From: Pseudomonas sp. KBW05
GTDB taxonomy: Bacteria > Pseudomonadota > Gammaproteobacteria > Pseudomonadales > Pseudomonadaceae
Direction of reading: 5' to 3'
Length of the DNA: 64,000 nt
Assembly: GCF_003852405.1 (NCBI RefSeq)
Contig: NZ_QAJM01000001.1
Span: forward strand, 102,454-166,453
Position 1 is the first letter of the stretch, and every line of letters begins with the position of its first letter. The notes beneath the pieces are model-generated. The model saw nothing but the letters and a program-made list of their open reading frames with translations. It had not been told where the DNA came from and did no database searches. A program made the position numbers and the translations under genes. This document shows positions 1,813 to 9,618 of this stretch, piece after piece.

Positions 1813-4800
1813 GCGGAAAGATCCCCCCACTGGTAGCGCTTAACGTCATTTTCATCGTAAACCTTGCCGCCACGGTTATTGATGGTCTGGCGACCACCGC
1901 CACCAGTCGCGCTATTCAACTCGAACTCACCGGTGACGAAGTTGATCATCAGCCCCATCCTCCCGGGAACGTAGTTTTCCGACTGGATGCTCTGGGTCAG
2001 CTTTGCCACACCGATTGAAGCGTCCTGAATGAACGCCGAGTTCATGAACACCTGCCCGCCCTGCACCACAAACGGCGTGGTGATCGCCCCGCCAGCAATG
2101 GTGTTCACCACCGCAAACCGATCAGCACTCACCACGAACTGGCTTTGCAGTAAGCCGTCGGCGTTCTGCTCGATGCCCAGGCCGATCCCCGCTGCCACGT
2201 ACTGGCCGTTGGCGTTGACCTGCATCTTCACCGCCCACATTGTGGACAGCTTGCCGTCGATGTCTGCTGTAGCCCTGGCCGTGACCTGGATCGACGCCTT
2301 GTTCTTCCAGTCGTTGATGGCACTGGCCAGGTCGCCCTCATCCGAGCCGTCACGATCACCGCCGGCGATGGCTTCAATCGTGGTGGACTGGGATGCGATC
2401 GACTTGTTGGTATCAGCAAGCGACTGGGTGACGGTCTGGACGGCTGCCGAGTTGGTATCGACGTTGCTCTTAAGCTGGTCGATACGCTCAGTAGTTGCCA
2501 GCTTGTCGGTGGCCACCACCTGCTCCAGCGTGGTCAGTGCAGCCTTGTTGGCCCCCACCGCCGCATCCAGCGACGTAGTGCGCTCAACCATTGCCCGGTT
2601 GTCGGAAGCCTGTACCTTCACCTGCTGCGCAAACTTGGCGGTGGCGTCCCAACTTTTCACCGCGTCGGCAAGGTCACCCTCCCCGTCATTCTCGCGCCAG
2701 CTTGCCTGGAGCGATTGCAGCGCCGAGGCGTTCGCTGTGACCTTGCCGTCCACGGTTTCGATTGAAGTCTTGTTCTGCTGGATCTGGAGTGCCATGGCCT
2801 GGGTTGTTTGGGCAATGGTGCCCATGTTGAACCAGTACTCGACAGCGGGCGGCGGGGTATCCACCGGTACCGCCTTGAGTGCCTGCCACAGGTTCTGCCC
2901 CGTGCGAACAATCTGCCCGGTGGTGTAGGTCTTGGTCGGAACGTAGACCAGGGCGTCCGTTACGTGGTCGATCAGGTCTTCCAGTTCCTGCTTGGCTTGC
3001 TCCAAACGATCATTGACCGAGCCCGGACCGGAGCCGGAGATCAGCTCGATCTCCTCAAGCAGCTCCTTGCCCAATTCGGATTCGCCAATCTGGCCGGCGA
3101 TCATCTCCAGAATCGGCGCAGCATTCGCGCTGGCCTGCCCCGGTACACCATTGACCACCGGATAGAACGGGCCGACGTTGCCGGTGCGGTCCACCAGGCG
3201 CGCCCAGAAGAAGAACTGCGCACCGGCCTTGAGGGCCTGCATGCTGTGGTTCGCCTGGGGGTAGGCCAAGTCGGCAAGCTTGGTGGCCACTGACAGGTCA
3301 TTGGCTGGGCCGTACCACAGCTCGGTCCGCTGGGTGTCCTCGGCACCGGGCGGGAAAGCCCACCGGATGCCGATGCCGAACAATTCGCTGGTGGTGGTCA
3401 GGGACGCAACCGCAGGCGGCAGGCCCACCTTCCCTTCCAGATTGGTCAGGTTGGAGCTCTTCCAGATCGACGAAATTTCAAAGGCGCTCACCGAGCGAAC
3501 CCGGGCCAGATAGGCGCCAGAGTAGATGCCGGTGAGGTCCACGCTCGTCGAACCAGTGCGCTGCAGCTTGATCCAGTTGCCGCTGTCCTTGCGCCACTCC
3601 ACGTCATAGGCGATCGCACCCGAAACAGCAGGCCACGAGATGTTCATGGTGCTGATTGCCAGGCCTTGGTCCACGGAGTAGTTCGAGGTGATGCTAACGC
3701 TCGCCGGCGCCGGAACCACGGTGATGGGTACAACACTGATCGGACGATCCTCCAGGCGCGCGCCGGTATCGATGTGATCGAACTTGCTCGGGTCGTACTG
3801 CACGGCCGAGATCTCGAACACGCCGGCTTCCGGCCGGGCCACGCTCACCACGCGGTAAAGCGGGATGGCCAGGTCGTCTGCATCCAGCGCCCACACCAGT
3901 TCGCGCTCAGGCGGGACGGAGTAGGCCAGGGTTACGGTGACTTGCCGGCCGCTGACCAGTTGCACGGTGCGGCCCTCGCACTTGCCATCGGGCAAGTTGA
4001 GGATTAGCCGGTCGCCAGGCTTGGCCTGGGTGTCGCGGTCCAGGGTGATGACCTTGCCATTCACCGCCGAGATGCGTCCGCCCACAGAACGGCCGGCCAG
4101 CAGTTCGTCAGCAATAGGGATCACGTAGCCGGGCAGCGGGATACGCCCGTCGAGGCCGACCTTGAAAGTGACGGCGCGGTCTTTGGAGTTCGTGAGCAGC
4201 GCCCACTTACCGCGGCGCTGCGCCTCCGACTCACGGGTGCAGCCGATGGCGCTGATCTCCAGCGGGTTGTCGCCGTAGCGCCGCTGGAGCTTCGAATCCG
4301 TGACCGCCGTGACATCGGTGTCGTAGTTGTTGGCCGGGTTGTCGTAGCTGATCAATGCCCGGGTGTATCGCGTGCGCTCCGAGGCGCTGGAGTAGGTGAA
4401 CTTGCCGTCGATCACGTTCGCCCTGGTATAGGCGAAGTCGAAGTCGGTGGCGCGCGGCATGTCCGCCAGCGTGAAGACCTGGCCCTGCGCCCAGTAGGTC
4501 ATGCCACGGTAGATCGCCGAGATATCGCGCAGCAGCGACCAAGCGTCAGCCTTGCTCTGCAGGTTCAAGTTGCAGAGGAAGCGCGGTTCCATGCCGCCTT
4601 TTCCGTCCGGCACCAATTGGTCGCAGTATTGGGAAATACGATACAACTCCCAAATATCAACCATCCACGGCTTGATGCGACGGCCCAAGCCGAAGCGGTC
4701 GGCGGTGGTGATGTCGTAAGTCATCCAGACAGCATTGTCAGTCCATGCCTGCTTGAATGTACCGTCCCATATCCCGGTGTATGAACGCGACGCGGGGTCG

Positions 4801-5579
4801 TAGTTACTCGGTACCTGCATCTTCTTCAGCTTGGTCTCGACCGTGACGGCCGGGATGCTGCGGAACTGCTCGGCTGAAAATTCGATGTAGAGCAGCGCTG
4901 TATTTGGATAGCGAACCTTCGCATCGATCACCTCGGTGAAGCCGGCGATCTGCATGGTGTCGGAGATTTTGTTGTTGTTCTGGTTGATCGTCAGTCGCGT
5001 GATCCTCATCAGCCAGCCAGTGGTCGCCTTTGGAAGATCAATGCGGCGTGTTCGCTCGTACAGGCTGGTGGTCTTGCCGTCGACAGCCTCGCTCAGCACC
5101 TGCTGGTAGGTCCCACCATCGGTGGCCAGCTCAACCTTGTATTCAATGCGGTACCCATTGACGTTGCCGCTAGAGTCCACCGACTGAAGCGCCGGCCACG
5201 CGAAACGCACTCGTACTGCGGAGAGCTGGGTGTTGCTAATGGCTCGGACCCACGGCGTACCGCTGCGCAGCTCGGTATTGATCGTTGTCTCGTTCTCGAT
5301 CGATGGAATGCCCTGGATATAGCTCTGATCCACGGCACCGGTGCGCCACTCCCACTTCACGTTCGGGAAGTTCATGTTGCCTTGAGGGTCTTGCAGGGGC
5401 GTGTTGTCGAGATAGATGTCTTTGGCAGTTGGCGTGCCCTCGAACTCACCCTCGCCCACGGCAATGAGCATTTTTGCGATAGCAACAGAGCGCAGACTGT
5501 CCGGGGCCTCAGTCGGCGTTTTTGGTTTACCTTCGCCGCCTTTGGCGCCGTGTATATCGATGTTTTGTGCTGCGCCCAT
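1809..5579 (-). CDS. J: Tail tip/host specificity protein J-like
   Basis: 1256 residues, close to lambda J in size. It is the central tail hub and host-recognition protein at the tail tip. The N-terminal half has the J pattern (GEFEGTPTAKDIYLDNTPLQ, then a long beta-rich hub). Around residues 620-810 are fibronectin-III-like repeats, and after about 870 there is a long helical/coiled region with ALQSLQ-type repeats, then a compact C-terminal segment. The ATG at 5579 has a GGAG SD directly after a terminator-like hairpin. It follows gene I as in lambda. Confidence 0.93.
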   Translation of the reverse strand: MGAAQNIDIHGAKGGEGKPKTPTEAPDSLRSVAIAKMLIAVGEGEFEGTPTAKDIYLDNTPLQDPQGNMNFPNVKWEWRTGAVDQSYIQGIPSIENETTINTELRSGTPWVRAISNTQLSAVRVRFAWPALQSVDSSGNVNGYRIEYKVELATDGGTYQQVLSEAVDGKTTSLYERTRRIDLPKATTGWLMRITRLTINQNNNKISDTMQIAGFTEVIDAKVRYPNTALLYIEFSAEQFRSIPAVTVETKLKKMQVPSNYDPASRSYTGIWDGTFKQAWTDNAVWMTYDITTADRFGLGRRIKPWMVDIWELYRISQYCDQLVPDGKGGMEPRFLCNLNLQSKADAWSLLRDISAIYRGMTYWAQGQVFTLADMPRATDFDFAYTRANVIDGKFTYSSASERTRYTRALISYDNPANNYDTDVTAVTDSKLQRRYGDNPLEISAIGCTRESEAQRRGKWALLTNSKDRAVTFKVGLDGRIPLPGYVIPIADELLAGRSVGGRISAVNGKVITLDRDTQAKPGDRLILNLPDGKCEGRTVQLVSGRQVTVTLAYSVPPERELVWALDADDLAIPLYRVVSVARPEAGVFEISAVQYDPSKFDHIDTGARLEDRPISVVPITVVPAPASVSITSNYSVDQGLAISTMNISWPAVSGAIAYDVEWRKDSGNWIKLQRTGSTSVDLTGIYSGAYLARVRSVSAFEISSIWKSSNLTNLEGKVGLPPAVASLTTTSELFGIGIRWAFPPGAEDTQRTELWYGPANDLSVATKLADLAYPQANHSMQALKAGAQFFFWARLVDRTGNVGPFYPVVNGVPGQASANAAPILEMIAGQIGESELGKELLEEIELISGSGPGSVNDRLEQAKQELEDLIDHVTDALVYVPTKTYTTGQIVRTGQNLWQALKAVPVDTPPPAVEYWFNMGTIAQTTQAMALQIQQNKTSIETVDGKVTANASALQSLQASWRENDGEGDLADAVKSWDATAKFAQQVKVQASDNRAMVERTTSLDAAVGANKAALTTLEQVVATDKLATTERIDQLKSNVDTNSAAVQTVTQSLADTNKSIASQSTTIEAIAGGDRDGSDEGDLASAINDWKNKASIQVTARATADIDGKLSTMWAVKMQVNANGQYVAAGIGLGIEQNADGLLQSQFVVSADRFAVVNTIAGGAITTPFVVQGGQVFMNSAFIQDASIGVAKLTQSIQSENYVPGRMGLMINFVTGEFELNSATGGGGRQTINNRGGKVYDENDVKRYQWGDLSA

Positions 5580-5596
5580 GCTTTTCTCCAGGCAAT

Positions 5597-5619
5597 AAAA
5601 AACCGCCTCATGGGCGGCT
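5597..5619 (-). terminator. Intrinsic terminator-like hairpin between I and J
   Basis: CCGCC/GGCGG stem, then TTTTTTATTGCCTGGAG, which leads straight into the J SD and ATG. It shares the T-run/SD block with the site at 769-790. Readthrough is needed for J expression from the late promoter. Confidence 0.65.
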
Positions 5620-5638
5620 GCGATGCTTAAAGTGGTGT

Positions 5639-6238
5639 CTACATCTGGTCTTCGGCGTATATCGCGGCGCTAATAATCGCGCCGCCGACCCTGCGCTTGC
5701 CGTAGCAGAGCGGGACCGGGTTGCCGGATGCAGTTGTGTTCTGCGCCGAGCCAAATGCATATCCAGGCTGGTTTTCGGGCGCAGCGCTCATCTTGAGGCC
5801 TGCCGCCTGCGGACTAAGCATTTGGATTACGCCCCCAGCAGCACTACCGATACCGCCCGCTATGAGGGCTGCGCCTGTAGTTGTTGTCGACCCGAACGCA
5901 AAAAAACCTACCACAATCAATATGGCACCCAAAATGGTCTGCATCAGGCCTGCGCGCTTTCGGCCCGTAATTACCGGCGCTATACGGATTTCTCCGGAAC
6001 CGCCAAATCCTAATTCTTTTTCTTCAAGATTTTTTGACCCTCGAAACACGGCAAACTCAATGCCGCGAGACTTGGCGTTCGACAGGAACCGCTCGAAGCC
6101 AGGGATCTGTACGCATAGTGCCTTGATAGCCTCGGCTGGGGACTTAACTGACAACCTGAAAGATCTTCCAAATTGCCTAAGCTGCCCATAAAGCAAGATG
6201 GTAGTCATCGGCTGATAATTAATTGCGAGTGCTGACAT
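5639..6238 (-). CDS. I: Tail assembly protein I-like
   Basis: 199 residues from the ATG at 6238, which has a GGAG SD. An upstream ATG at 6289 would read through the terminator and is rejected. The N-terminal half is a ubiquitin-like fold pattern (TTILLYGQLRQFGRSFRL, then GFERFLSN). A Gly/Ala-rich hydrophobic segment (about residues 105-150) and a C-terminal VPLCYGKRRVGG motif follow, as in lambda gpI. It acts in tail-tip assembly upstream of J. The expected neighbour K is not adjacent: about 6.5 kb of other genes lies between. Confidence 0.9.
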   Translation of the reverse strand: MSALAINYQPMTTILLYGQLRQFGRSFRLSVKSPAEAIKALCVQIPGFERFLSNAKSRGIEFAVFRGSKNLEEKELGFGGSGEIRIAPVITGRKRAGLMQTILGAILIVVGFFAFGSTTTTGAALIAGGIGSAAGGVIQMLSPQAAGLKMSAAPENQPGYAFGSAQNTTASGNPVPLCYGKRRVGGAIISAAIYAEDQM

Positions 6239-6252
6239 GGTTTTCTCCAGGC

Positions 6253-6278
6253 GAAAAAAAACCCGCTGTAGCGGGCTT
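6253..6278 (-). terminator. Intrinsic terminator after the lipoprotein gene
   Basis: AGCCCGCTACAGCGGGTT hairpin with a run of eight T on the minus strand, then CGCCTGGAG, the SD of gene I. It ends the lipoprotein transcript and lies ahead of I. It is the third terminator/SD block of this type. Confidence 0.7.
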
Positions 6279-6285
6279 AATGGGA

Positions 6286-6687
6286 TCAATAAGCGGTAGC
6301 TGAAATATCTGGACCGCCGGGCGACATGGATATTCTTCTTCTCAAAACTTCTCCGCTTTTTATTTCGACATCGCGCTCAACCATCATCCCTCCCCCGCAA
6401 GCTGCGCTTGGCTTCGCGCCAAGCACTACTCGGCCGGCCTTAACACCAAACCTAGCCACCTCTCCCGAGGAGAATTCGGCAGCAAGCTCCCCATTGATAT
6501 AGAAACGGTAATTGCATCCAGATCCAAACATCCCGCCATCTCGGGTAACAATGAGTTGAGCATCGGACTTTGTAGCGAAGGCATAAAGCCGAGAGCTTGG
6601 CACCGGATCGGCCTTGTCGGCAGATATAGGCGAACTAGAGCAGCCGACCAAGCTCAAAATAAAAAAGAATCCTACGAACAGTTTCAT
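6286..6687 (-). CDS. Small outer-membrane lipoprotein (moron candidate)
   Basis: 133 residues with a lipoprotein signal: basic start, hydrophobic stretch, lipobox LVGC at Cys16, then Ser-rich linker. The ATG at 6687 has a strong GAGGGAG SD. The mature part is beta-rich with a possible disulphide pair (Cys58 and Cys97). Lipoproteins placed among tail genes can act in superinfection exclusion by masking receptors (the Cor/Lom type), but no such family was recognised here. It ends just before a strong terminator. Confidence 0.75.
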   Translation of the reverse strand: MKLFVGFFFILSLVGCSSSPISADKADPVPSSRLYAFATKSDAQLIVTRDGGMFGSGCNYRFYINGELAAEFSSGEVARFGVKAGRVVLGAKPSAACGGGMMVERDVEIKSGEVLRRRISMSPGGPDISATAY

Positions 6688-6745
6688 GTCGCTCCCTCGT
6701 TGAGAAATGGCGAGACTTTATCACCAAGCAGAGAGCAACACGAAA

Positions 6746-7064
6746 GCCCGCAATGCGGGCTATATCAATCGAAAACTTCTAACACTGCAATGCCTCCTCC
6801 AAGAAGAGACATTACGCTGTTATCAGCCCATACCAAATCAAACCACACCCCGCCGGACCTAGCCGCGACTTGCCGGACCAGAACCTGCCAGCGGCTTCTG
6901 CCACCGCAATGCCGACTGATTCCAATCGGCATTACGCTGTTGTCAGCCCTCACCTCGACATGCCCGACCTAACCAGGCCTCGCCCAACCTTGTCTCGCCA
7001 CGCCACATGATGCGTTCGCACCGCAATGCCCTCTCATAGAAAGGACATTACTCTGCTATTGACC
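6746..7064 (-). ncRNA. Non-coding array: hairpin repeats separated by pentamer runs
   Basis: The array starts over the stop codon of the upstream gene and reads on the minus strand. Three hairpins (about 7050-7023, 6935-6906 and 6815-6787) share a GTAATG/CATTGC lower stem, and their upper stems differ by compensatory changes (TCCT/AGGG, CCGA/TCGG, TCTC/GAGG). Between them are 12 pentamers (7005-6946) and 13 pentamers (6890-6826) of consensus NGGYN, each preceded by a short linker with its own small hairpin (7020-7006, 6903-6891). The unit length is 116-120 bp. A GCCCGC-ATT-GCGGGC hairpin at 6746-6760 closes it. No long ORF fits the 5-nt period. A structured RNA co-transcribed with the antirepressor operon is inferred. 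Confidence 0.7.
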
Positions 7065-7517
7065 AAGAGCCTTTCGGGTCATGCCCTGGAGCGCGGAAAA
7101 CTTTGCTACAGCGTCAAGGTTTGCACGTCGCTGATCATCGGTAAGCTCCGTTATCCTCAGATTCCTCAGCTTTTCTCCACTCCCGCGAAACGCCTTCCGG
7201 ACATTCCGGCCCAGCTCACTTACCGCAACTTCTGTCTGCTCATGAGGCGGCACCCAGCGGTAACCACGGCCGCGCACAGACTGAAGGCAGACCTGATGAT
7301 GCTTGAGCAAGTCCGATTTAAATGCCTCCACGTTCGCAAGCCATTCGAACTGACGCTCACGAAACTTCTCAACGGTCAGCGACTTCGAGTCAGTCATGGA
7401 AGGCATTCCGAAACGCGCCTCCAACCACTCATGCCCGACCAGATCGCCGTATTTGAATTCCTTGAGGAAGTCATCAACAGCTTGCTTGTAGCTTGGGTGC
7501 TTTGTCAGTTCAGACAT
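7056..7517 (-). CDS. Winged-helix-like phage protein of unknown function
   Basis: 153 residues from the ATG at 7517, which overlaps the end of the upstream gene by 8 nt. The middle is helical and Lys/Arg-rich. The motif SVRGRGYRWVPP resembles the wing of OmpR/winged-helix nucleic-acid-binding domains. The tail is helical and charged (SGEKLRNLRITELTDD). It is the last gene of the antirepressor operon, and its stop codon lies inside the first repeat of the non-coding array. Binding to DNA or to the array RNA is an inference. Confidence 0.75.
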   Translation of the reverse strand: MSELTKHPSYKQAVDDFLKEFKYGDLVGHEWLEARFGMPSMTDSKSLTVEKFRERQFEWLANVEAFKSDLLKHHQVCLQSVRGRGYRWVPPHEQTEVAVSELGRNVRKAFRGSGEKLRNLRITELTDDQRRANLDAVAKFSALQGMTRKALGQ

Positions 7518-8085
7518 ATGCCACCTCGAAACGACCGAAGCGCGGCCGGTATTCACAGACGCCAATCAACAGTCCTGAGTCGGTGATCGCCTTTTTTGCT
7601 TCCTCTATGTTGAGTACGTCAGCGTTGATCGCGACTTCCAGCTCGACGCCCCATTCAAGAAAGATTGGCCGGTAACGCATGATCTTCGCCTGCCCAACCT
7701 TAACCCCGCGACAATCAACGAATCGCTGATCCTCCCAAAGAGAATCGGGAGTTGTCGGCCCAGAGAACTCCAGCTTTGCCTTGTCAGTCATTACGACCGC
7801 TCCGCGCTTCCATTGCGTGCCCAGCTTCTGAAGCTTCGCGCCAGCCAGGAACGTCGCATCGAAGTTAGCGCCGGGTACAAAGAATCCGAGCTTTTCATCG
7901 TGGTAAGCGCCGGCGATAAATTCAGAGCGAGCGATGGCAAGATGATCGTCGTCCGTCTTCTTGCGCTTTCCGGTCAATTCCTTATGAGCCTTTGTTGCGG
8001 GATTCAAAGGGTTGGCCAGCTTGTCGCTGTGCATCATCAGCGGAGACGTGCCGGTAATTTTTAGCGTGACAAGTTCCATGCTCAT
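7510..8085 (-). CDS. Possible Cas7/RAMP-fold phage protein
   Basis: 191 residues. The ATG at 8085 overlaps the antirepressor stop (ATGA) and has a GGAGG SD. Three features resemble RAMP (Cas7-like) proteins: an N-terminal strand with TLKITGTSPLMMH, a GFFVPGANFDATFLAGAKL stretch like the RAMP 'IPGSSLKGALR' segment, and a C-terminal Gly/Arg-rich loop then strand (LIGVCEYRPRFGRFEV). These are visual similarities, not a profile match. RAMP proteins bind RNA with regular nucleotide spacing, which is notable beside a pentamer-periodic RNA array. It could also be an unrelated ferredoxin-like phage protein. Confidence 0.6.
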   Translation of the reverse strand: MSMELVTLKITGTSPLMMHSDKLANPLNPATKAHKELTGKRKKTDDDHLAIARSEFIAGAYHDEKLGFFVPGANFDATFLAGAKLQKLGTQWKRGAVVMTDKAKLEFSGPTTPDSLWEDQRFVDCRGVKVGQAKIMRYRPIFLEWGVELEVAINADVLNIEEAKKAITDSGLLIGVCEYRPRFGRFEVAYV

Positions 8086-8945
8086 GCTGCGTCCCTCCGA
8101 GCAGCCTGGAAAAGAAATCGGCAGCGCAGATTTTCAGTAGCAAGCGCCACAAACTCAAACATTTCCGCTGTGGAGACTGGCATATCCCTGTCCACAAGCA
8201 TCGACTGCATGAACTGCTGCCGGGTCAAAACGAACGCACCCATTGGCACGGGCGTGACCTGCCGATTGCCGTGATGGTCGGCGCTGACGAGATATCGCTC
8301 ACACTCTCCAAGTTTGTCGGGGATATCGAAGGACTTGCCCTGCCCCTTCGGAATGAACTCACCTTCCAGGACGGCGTAGGCCGCGATGAAGTTGCACGCC
8401 GACTCGAACTGGCTTGCAGGTATCAGCTCAAGGCGCGGCACGTTGAAACGCGTGTGCACTGCTGAATAAATACGCGCGGAAGCACTGCGCTGAATGGATG
8501 CTGGAAGATGTGCCACTTTGTGGCGCGCCAAGCCTTTCAGGGCATTCGTCTCGGTCATGTCGACCAGGTCATCCATCAGCGTCTTCATTCTATTGCTGGA
8601 GTCTTGGTAGCTGCCCTGCTTGCGAATCGCCGGAAGGACTTCAGCAGTCACCCACTTCTTGAAGCGCTTGGCTTCAGCCTTGCGGCTGCGCAGGATGGCC
8701 GAGTAAAGGCCGGATTCGTTTATGACCAGCATTTCTTGGTCGCCGCCAGGGGTACGCACAATCTGCGTACCCTTTTCGTCTTCGTCCAAGTTTCGAGTCA
8801 TGTCACCAGCAATACGGTACTCCAGGGCGGACGACACATCTGCCGCCACGAACCACGGCTGATCATCAATCAGCAGGGTCCGCACCTGTTGCTTGCCGAA
8901 CTTGAAGGGGATGACATTGGATGTGGCTGTGCTAATATCGCTCAT
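8082..8945 (-). CDS. ant: Antirepressor (BRO-N N-terminal domain)
   Basis: 287 residues from the ATG at 8945. Residues 1-110 form a BRO-N domain (IDDQPWFVAADVSSALEY, then INESGLYSAILRSRKAEAKR and FKKWVTAEVLPAIRKQGSY). The C-terminal half (ARIYSAVHTRFNVPRLELI, then ASQFESACNFIAAY) resembles the ORF6C antirepressor domain. Such proteins inactivate phage repressors by binding them. It follows an Arc-like gene with a terminator and sar-like RNA between them, as in P22 immI, so it probably antagonises the CI-like repressor or those of other prophages. It is coupled to two downstream genes. Confidence 0.88.
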   Translation of the reverse strand: MSDISTATSNVIPFKFGKQQVRTLLIDDQPWFVAADVSSALEYRIAGDMTRNLDEDEKGTQIVRTPGGDQEMLVINESGLYSAILRSRKAEAKRFKKWVTAEVLPAIRKQGSYQDSSNRMKTLMDDLVDMTETNALKGLARHKVAHLPASIQRSASARIYSAVHTRFNVPRLELIPASQFESACNFIAAYAVLEGEFIPKGQGKSFDIPDKLGECERYLVSADHHGNRQVTPVPMGAFVLTRQQFMQSMLVDRDMPVSTAEMFEFVALATENLRCRFLFQAARRDAA

Positions 8946-9014
8946 GACGTTTTTCCTAGTAGATTGACGTTCTGCTTCACAGGCCTCAAGCGTTGGCGCG
9001 CTTGGGGCTTTTTC
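8930..9014 (+). ncRNA. sar-like antisense RNA over the antirepressor start
   Basis: On the plus strand an extended -10 (TGCTAATAT, 8930-8938) sits in the first codons of ant. About 70 nt downstream is an intrinsic terminator (10-bp stem 8983-8992/8999-9008, then five T) that overlaps the arc stop codon. The transcript would cover the ant ribosome-binding site. In P22 the sar RNA has this position, orientation and similar size, and blocks ant translation. No good -35 was seen, consistent with an extended -10 promoter. Confidence 0.6.
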
Positions 9015-9165
9015 ATGCCTGTTCATTTTTCGCTTTTCCCTTGGCTTGCTGAATAATCTCAACCAGTTGCGCGTTCATCGAGCGGTTCTGCTCGCGCGCC
9101 TGCTGTTTCAACCATTCCATCAGCTCACCAGGGAATCTAACCTGCGTTCTTGCTAGATCGCTCAT
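9013..9165 (-). CDS. arc: Arc-like ribbon-helix-helix repressor
   Basis: 50 residues: MSDLARTQVRFPGELMEWLK, then QQAREQNRSMNAQLVEIIQQ. This is an Arc-family ribbon-helix-helix protein: beta-strand RTQVRFP, helix A, the NRSMNAQL turn, helix B. The SD AAGGAGGG is strong. It is the first gene of the antirepressor operon and should dimerise and repress its own promoter and ant, as P22 Arc does. It is shorter than 60 codons and easily missed. Confidence 0.88.
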   Translation of the reverse strand: MSDLARTQVRFPGELMEWLKQQAREQNRSMNAQLVEIIQQAKGKAKNEQA

Positions 9166-9176
9166 AACCCCTCCTT

Positions 9177-9228
9177 AGTGACACGCAGTCACTATACAGC
9201 CGATATTTCACAGTGACAAGATAGTGAC
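9177..9228. promoter_or_regulatory. Divergent arc/mnt promoter and operator region
   Basis: On the minus strand TTGTCA (9219-9214), a 17-bp spacer and TATAGT (9196-9191) form a near-consensus promoter for arc/ant. AGTGAC half-sites occur at 9177, 9212 and 9223, and the inverted GTCACT at 9188. The 9212/9223 and 9177/9188 pairs are each 11 bp apart, the spacing of Arc-type operators. They cover the -10 and -35. The mnt-like ATG at 9229 directly follows the last half-site with no clear SD, so that mRNA may be leaderless. Confidence 0.75.
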
Positions 9229-9618
9229 ATGGAAGAAATTTATAGATCTCAATTCCGCCTCCCCTACTCTCTTTATGAGCAGTTGAAGGCTTCCGCTGAC
9301 AAGAATCGCCGCTCAGTGAACGCGGAGCTAATCGCGCGCCTGGAGCAAAGTTTTGAGGTTCAGCAACAAGATGCTGAGGATTCCCCTCGATTTAAGATCG
9401 ATGGAGACGCCTTTAATCTTGGGAAATATGAGCCTGGGGCTGACGCAGTGAAATTTGCAGGCGGTCCGGCAGCCGAAAAGGAAAACTCCTTTATGGCGAG
9501 TTTGCTAGAACTGATTAATGAGTATCGCCCCGCAGAGCTCAAAACGTTGCCGCCCGATAACGCAAAACCCAAACCTAATACGGGGCCAGAGCCCCGCAAG
9601 CGCTACCCGAAGAAGTGA
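9229..9618 (+). CDS. mnt: Mnt/Arc-family repressor with C-terminal extension
   Basis: 129 residues. The first 45 form an Arc/Mnt ribbon-helix-helix domain (strand RSQFRLPYSLYEQLK, turn KNRRSVNAELIARLE). The remainder is a low-complexity, acidic then Pro/Lys-rich tail. It is divergent from arc across a shared operator, the P22 immI arrangement in which Mnt holds ant silent in the lysogen. Because it is transcribed away from the late genes it can be expressed in the lysogen. The tail is longer than in P22 Mnt (about 80 residues), so details of oligomerisation may differ. Confidence 0.82.
   Translation: MEEIYRSQFRLPYSLYEQLKASADKNRRSVNAELIARLEQSFEVQQQDAEDSPRFKIDGDAFNLGKYEPGADAVKFAGGPAAEKENSFMASLLELINEYRPAELKTLPPDNAKPKPNTGPEPRKRYPKK

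Follow-up and report, generated by a model that had tools for sequence, protein, structure and literature searches.

A prophage VIPR locus of Pseudomonas with two guide RNAs very probably aimed at tail genes of related phages, and a hint of self-sparing

Layout of the locus and identity of its genes

In the window, the whole 64,000-nucleotide stretch of DNA that was analysed, the locus lies between the gene of a Bro-type antirepressor and the tail genes I and J, which places it in a phage or prophage. Downstream of two small genes, the minus strand carries two pentamer runs (7064-6745), each ending in a covarying hairpin tail, with a tail-like hairpin ahead of the runs and a terminator at the array end. 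Read on this strand, the vap stop codon is followed by a hairpin, run 1, its tail, run 2, its tail and the terminator-like hairpin.

7510-8085, minus strand: vipr gene, 191 aa, phrog_4652, putative guide-RNA-binding protein by homology
7056-7517, minus strand: vap gene, 153 aa, phrog_5926, for an accessory protein, overlapping the end of vipr at its start
7019-7059, minus strand: tail-like leader hairpin at the vap stop codon, without a preceding pentamer run
6950-7004, minus strand: vrRNA1 guide region, 11 pentamers and a leading dinucleotide ahead of them; dinucleotides (GT) GT GA AA TG GA CT TA CG AT GA GA
6890-6949, minus strand: vrRNA1 3' tail with a GCTG/CAGC hairpin, a GTAATG..CATTGC hairpin and a small third hairpin (the third by eye)
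6830-6889, minus strand: vrRNA2 guide region, 12 pentamers; dinucleotides AG CT CC AA GC TA CC GG GT TT TT AT
6768-6829, minus strand: vrRNA2 3' tail, lower end approximate
6745-6761, minus strand: terminator-like hairpin that closes the array
7019-7059, 6902-6939 and 6783-6823, minus strand: hairpins with the lower stem GTAATG/CATTGC, spaced by 117 and 119 bp

A sequence-only reading of this DNA had described the three minus-strand hairpins and a terminator-like hairpin closing the array, and both descriptions were confirmed (the latter at 6761-6745). It had also seen the pentamer runs, for which we count 11-12 and 12 units instead of 12 and 13. The hairpin is the 3' tail of each run, and the first hairpin has no run before it. 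Comparable hairpins 3' of vap were seen by eye in many relatives.

A periodicity scan of the window, at a threshold chosen once the arrays were already known, returned no runs but these two, and 20 first-order Markov controls of 64 kb gave none. In phiSUSP1, which served as positive control, it returned four arrays, one upstream and three downstream of vipr, in agreement with PMC13142463. Rfam gave no match at gathering score in 6700-7100 and only sub-threshold matches in 5000-9500, none of them inside the array. Because only period and core are fixed, the array is also missed by Tandem Repeats Finder, in whose output at score 30 it is absent. A strict hairpin pattern search yielded 0 matches and a plasmid search none. 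Beside the array, a segment of 50-60 bp ahead of the lipoprotein gene (6690-6750) is conserved in phages and genomes in which the parser saw no array (L003-L006), and it may contain the lipoprotein promoter.

The sole PDB match of the vipr product is Vipr of SUSP1 (36pp_D), with an E value of 6.9e-46 when the sequence is searched alone and of 1.2e-60 with profile A1, and its identity to the phiSUSP1 protein is 42%; searches of Pfam, NCBIfam and PADLOC gave no match. By homology to 36pp it is predicted to be a single-domain RAMP. Vipr homologues occur in 135 of 50,697 phage records, most of them labelled hypothetical among the 60 listed, and Vipr is 99-100% identical in four viral contigs. For vap, profile A2 matched the gene beside SUSP1 vipr (E 6e-27) and its LESphi2 counterpart (E 5.4e-44) in a two-sequence search, so that a vap gene stands beside vipr in the window as well; judged by its position, the SUSP1 neighbour is probably vap1. 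At E 0.001, neither J nor vipr has a second copy in the genome to which the window belongs.

VIPR was described in a preprint of April 2026 as a Vipr RAMP protein with vap genes and vrRNAs, the latter consisting of 9-16 GGY/NN units and a structured 3' tail and reading their targets by a 1-nt skip code, and it was put forward as a CRISPR ancestor (PMC13142463). Expression, binding and silencing were demonstrated for the vrRNAs of SUSP1, and expression and co-purification for those of a prophage of Pseudomonas fulva; in the P. fulva clade the guides are reported to aim mainly at lysis-lysogeny regulators and not at tail genes (PMC13142463). The view that no named system has the form of the array can therefore not be kept, since the array is VIPR (PMC13142463), and its run lengths of 11 and 12 lie within the 9-16 YNNGG units of that system. 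The proposed association with upstream genes was correct as such, but the antirepressor is only a neighbour, and the role of functional partner falls to the two 'hypothetical' genes that separate it from the array. The locus is thus a well-preserved member of a known, very recent kind. Placement in type II and the P. fulva clade would be consistent with the homology of Vap to SUSP1 and with the Pseudomonas kin.

Relatives, pentamer unit and structured tail

Relatives were retrieved by a 19-letter tail motif, which gave 42 viral and 10 genome stretches. Five of the genome stretches (L054, L055, L056, L060, L061) were chance matches with neither array nor vipr. A tail-anchored parser found 100 vrRNAs in 49 loci, 75 of them distinct. 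A vipr match is present in 41 of these 49 array loci, five more have a vap match where the fetched stretch ends, and three loci of one phage (L007, L038, L053) have neither by tblastn. The association with the upstream genes is therefore not random, and the 5-nt period, whose loss in relatives had been named as grounds for giving up the earlier reading, persists. Seven genomes of 299 were matched, the own one included, and in L004-L006 the similarity is confined to the segment ahead of the lipoprotein gene. In L025 and L049 vipr is present and the runs, missed by the parser, are visible by eye.

Several relatives depart from the arrangement in the window. In L007 (1480-1690; also L038 and L053) only about 14 codons of vipr are left before the gene passes directly into a vrRNA end; one full orphan vrRNA persists, with an 8-dinucleotide match in a tape-measure-like gene of another phage. 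The Pseudomonas phage LESphi2 (L149 3587-3911) carries three vrRNA-like arrays upstream of its vipr and vap homologues and downstream of the CI repressor gene. The vrRNAs also stand upstream of vipr at L022 10752-11258, L036 1965-2471 and L042 3792-3964, where Vipr identity is 46-48%, and downstream of it in the equally distant L028 and L034. A 29-unit pentamer run with internal near-repeats, beyond the reported 9-16 units, occurs at L018 8366-8510 and L035 7004-7148 and is perhaps a duplicated guide.

In the distinct vrRNAs (967 units), the repeat unit reads G-N-Y-N-N, with G in 97%, G in 80% and a pyrimidine in 98% of the first three positions, followed by two near-even positions; since the run parser demands GGY in most units, these figures are biased toward GGY. 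The earlier formula NGGYN was right about a fixed core with two free positions and is better written G-N(80% G)-Y-N-N. Between homologous vrRNAs (48 overlapping and non-independent pairs selected at 80-99% identity), the five positions in order differ in 1, 14, 19, 12 and 11% of 610 units, where random units are expected to differ in 6, 34, 51, 73 and 74%. The NN bases are thus the most constrained relative to chance, as expected of a guide; in absolute terms position 1 alone is lower.

The structure of the tail was assessed on 35 tails, our choice from 52 distinct ones after exclusion of shorter or odd-length hairpins. In these tails the upper stems vary yet pair, with 99.3% of cells paired, and 10 of 13 pairs of the main helix show changes on both sides (61 cells). 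The covariation score was reached by 0 of 500 shuffles and the number of doubly changed pairs by 2 of 500. The vrRNAs therefore carry the conserved structured 3' tail of VIPR, as judged by covariation over the 35 chosen tails, and the earlier suggestion of selection on RNA structure, drawn from upper stems that differ but stay paired, is supported.

Skip code and targets of the two guides

The runs had been likened to a gapped guide with two free positions per unit. This comparison stands, with the correction that the target is read with one skipped base (NNx) and not with the 3-base gap of the guide itself. Across the 551,714 bases of the fetched loci, a match of 0.85 or better was found for 22 of 71 guides at skip 1, 0 of 71 at skip 0 and 4 of 71 at skip 2, compared with 5, 3 and 2 of 213 shuffled guides at the same skips; skip 3 retrieves the arrays themselves (71/71 guides). 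Unbroken runs separate the skips more sharply. Runs of at least 8 dinucleotides occur for 20 of 71 guides at skip 1, for none at skips 0 and 2, and for 0 of 142 shuffled guides at each skip, while runs of at least 7 occur for 26, 3 and 2 of 71 guides at skips 1, 0 and 2, against 5, 1 and 3 of 142 shuffled ones. A larger set comprised 189 loci and 2,298,428 bases after removal of wholly contained loci, so that some contigs are counted twice (e.g. L040 and L153). Here runs of at least 8 were found for 34 of 129 guides at skip 1 and for 0 of 129 at both skip 0 and skip 2, the shuffle control belonging to the 71-guide set only; the other 95 guides have no such run. The 1-nt skip code of VIPR was thus re-derived, and our data give the same code as a preprint that has been in print for a few months.

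For 21 of the 34 targets, reading in the longest open frame puts the skipped base at the guide strand's wobble position. Matches fall, among others, in J, in a gene for an assembly protein L and in vipr of other phages. The target DNA consists mostly of tail and vipr neighbourhoods, is unable to show other targets and yields no target census. Further matched genes are presumably tape-measure genes, to judge from their sequence; the scan itself covered the one in the window. Each of the guides at L029 6189-6243 and L039 3085-3144 (L166 comes from the contig of L039) finds its match in vipr of a rival phage; for the L039/L166 guide this includes the vipr of the window itself, over nine consecutive dinucleotides. 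VIPR systems therefore appear to target each other.

Both guides of the window, scored against 141 source loci, match related phages at 18/18 bases over nine consecutive dinucleotides, that is, over 9 of about 12 dinucleotides per guide. Guide 1 corresponds to the VDKWELYRI codons of the tail-tip gene J and guide 2 to the antisense strand of NTPGYAFGS in the tail gene I. The best total scores are 21/24 for guide 1 (reached by 1 of 100 shuffles) and 19/24 for guide 2 (4 of 100). Since these scores are modest, the case rests on the unbroken nine-dinucleotide cores, which were chosen from the match itself, on their recurrence and on the run statistic over all guides. Among non-carrier loci with a recognisable site, the core site is perfect (18/18) in 70 of 74 for guide 1 and in 70 of 78 for guide 2. 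Among named phages, PseuP_222 has both sites at 18/18, phiAH14a has 17/18 and 18/18 for guides 1 and 2, and Medea1 has 18/18 for guide 1. Poor sites occur in two Pseudomonas phages, YMC11/02/R656 (15/18 for both) and phiAH14b (12/18 and 16/18).

We conclude that the locus is very probably a prophage VIPR system with two vrRNAs aimed at tail genes of related phages. The two upstream genes would form an operon producing Vipr and Vap, and the downstream array would be transcribed and cut into two vrRNAs, each a pentamer run with its structured 3' tail. Vipr subunits may coat the run, hold the GNY bases and present the NN dinucleotides to double-stranded DNA, which would be paired as NNxNNx with one base skipped. 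Since guide 1 has the sense-strand sequence of J and guide 2 the antisense-strand sequence of I in related phages, the complex most likely blocks transcription of the rival's tail genes. Such a block could act during superinfection or on the tail genes of another prophage. Expression of the locus and silencing of tail genes by it are expected on this view. With conserved motifs of I and J as targets, the exclusion of superinfecting phages would be broad.

Own target sites, alternative explanations and known systems

The prophage carries its own versions of both target sites, and a third site of interest at the 3' end of its I gene.

4636-4661, minus strand: own J site for guide 1, VDIWELYRI, 16/18; gene phrog_31 'central tail fiber J'
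5748-5773, plus strand: own I site for guide 2, NQPGYAFGS on the coding strand, 14/18; gene phrog_32 tail assembly protein
5639-5662, minus strand: own I gene 3' end, 16/16 match to the guide core of the sister phage L030

The own sites thus differ from the targeted motifs by K to I in J and by T to Q in I. All 6 carriers of guide 1 score 15-16/18, and all 74 non-carriers score 17-18 (Fisher p 3e-9, ignoring shared descent). Guide-2 carriers score 14/18 in 3 of 3, and non-carriers 18 in 70 of 78, 17 in 1, 16 in 5 and 14 in 2. For the 74 and 78 loci, sites were found by protein motif only, which leaves out divergent J and I genes, and four duplicates (L062, L063, L064, L072) were dropped, of which L062 is an extra guide-1 carrier at 16/18. 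A wider set without the motif was aligned by the longest open frame, which for guide 2 of the window is not the coding frame, and was scored on DNA in agreement with the motif-based scoring. In this set 77 of 91 non-carriers reach at least 17 for guide 1, the other 14 scoring 14-16; for guide 2, 69 of 91 score 18, 8 score 16-17 and 14 score 14-15. When non-carriers were restricted to those whose flanking protein resembles that of the target to within 8 points of the carrier's own, 76 of 76 reached at least 17 for guide 1 and 47 of 52 were perfect for guide 2. The sister phage L030, whose Vipr is 98% identical to that of the window, carries a guide that scores 12/16 at its own site and is perfect in 56 of 58 similarity-matched non-carriers. 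Beyond these cases, 0 of the 34 guides with a target have a run of at least 8 in their own fetched locus. Carriers of the guide or a kin guide offered an alignable own site for 24 of the 34 guides (for 22, a carrier of that guide itself), and even the best of these sites lacks 2 bases of a perfect match. With kin guides among them, the 34 do not count as independent cases. They add little, since most have few matched non-carriers or mostly imperfect ones.

At both sites the skipped base is the wobble base of the codon, so that sparing needs an amino-acid change or a rare synonymous change at codon position 1 or 2. The locus hints at self-sparing through amino-acid change, and the own-site mismatches may exist for this end; the non-synonymous changes in the own tail genes suggest a route by which the phage avoids silencing itself. 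We somewhat favour the view that a carrier's guides and its own alleles of the target are linked as weapon and immunity. Under such an arrangement a phage could arm itself against a conserved tail motif only through an amino-acid change in its own copy, the wobble base being skipped. Guide and spared tail alleles, within about 2.5 kb of each other, could travel together like a poison-antidote pair. Sister phages may rearm against each other, as the L030 guide core would suggest with 16/16 in the I gene of the window and 12/16 in its own.

The mismatches could also be unselected, the guides having come from foreign phages that already differed or the changes having been inherited by chance in one lineage. 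Most guide-1 carriers share VDIWELYRI and look like a single lineage; the loci are not independent; the non-carriers L026 and L030 have NQPGYAFGS as well, and in the wider set 14 of 91 non-carriers score at most 16 in J and 14 of 91 at most 15 in I. Against this stand guide-1 kin with other changes in J, namely VDKWSLYQI and VDKWSLYEI in L020/L163 (one contig) and L184, whose J genes are more divergent, as well as the L030 guide, which spares L030 itself, and the lack of any own-locus run of at least 8 among the 34 targeted guides. Taken together, we consider an unselected origin possible but somewhat less likely than selection. Regulation of the phage's own tail genes rather than those of rivals would fit the position of the array directly upstream of the own lipoprotein, I and J genes and the scores of 16/18 and 14/18 that the own sites still reach. 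Such a role is improbable, since these sites score below 74 of 74 non-carriers in J and 76 of 78 in I and since guides of other phages match the vipr genes of rivals.

Two further explanations concern the array itself. A 5-nt period with a fixed core would suit a repeat-binding protein, the pentamers then forming a protein-binding scaffold, comparable to the NAG repeats around the TRAP ring, in which the free bases are neutral. Neutral bases are hard to reconcile with NN positions that differ in 11-12% between homologous pairs against 73-74% at random (position 3, 19% against 51%) and with NN strings that match phage genes in long runs only at skip 1, which makes a pure scaffold very improbable. 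A degenerate or mini CRISPR array is even less credible, despite the repeat-spacer layout and the assignment of Vipr to the RAMPs (PMC13142463). The hairpins covary rather than being identical, the guide runs are pentameric, a contiguous run of at least 8 (skip 0) was found for 0 of 129 guides, and the only PDB match is Vipr, with no PADLOC match among the three proteins submitted. Neither near-identical repeats nor contiguous spacers were found; the earlier verdict that this is neither CRISPR nor a coding repeat holds.

The repeats of TRAP attenuator RNA have a trinucleotide core at a 5-nt period. The array shares both features with them and differs in that its free bases are kept between kin runs and match phage DNA. 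With Class 1 CRISPR-Cas it has in common a guide RNA coated by a RAMP and pairing that is interrupted periodically, as on a Cas7-type backbone (PMC13142463), whereas VIPR has neither identical repeats nor a contiguous spacer match and reads 2 of every 3 target bases. Closest are the VIPR systems of the SUSP1 and P. fulva clades (type II, PMC13142463), with which the locus shares the Vipr and Vap homologues, the GGY/NN runs, the structured 3' tail, an array downstream of vipr and vap, the prophage location and matches to other phages by the 1-nt skip code. The main text of PMC13142463 contains none of the words self, autoimmun or escape. In contrast to the SUSP1 and P. fulva systems, the targets found for the locus of the window are the tail genes I and J, and its own sites carry amino-acid changes.
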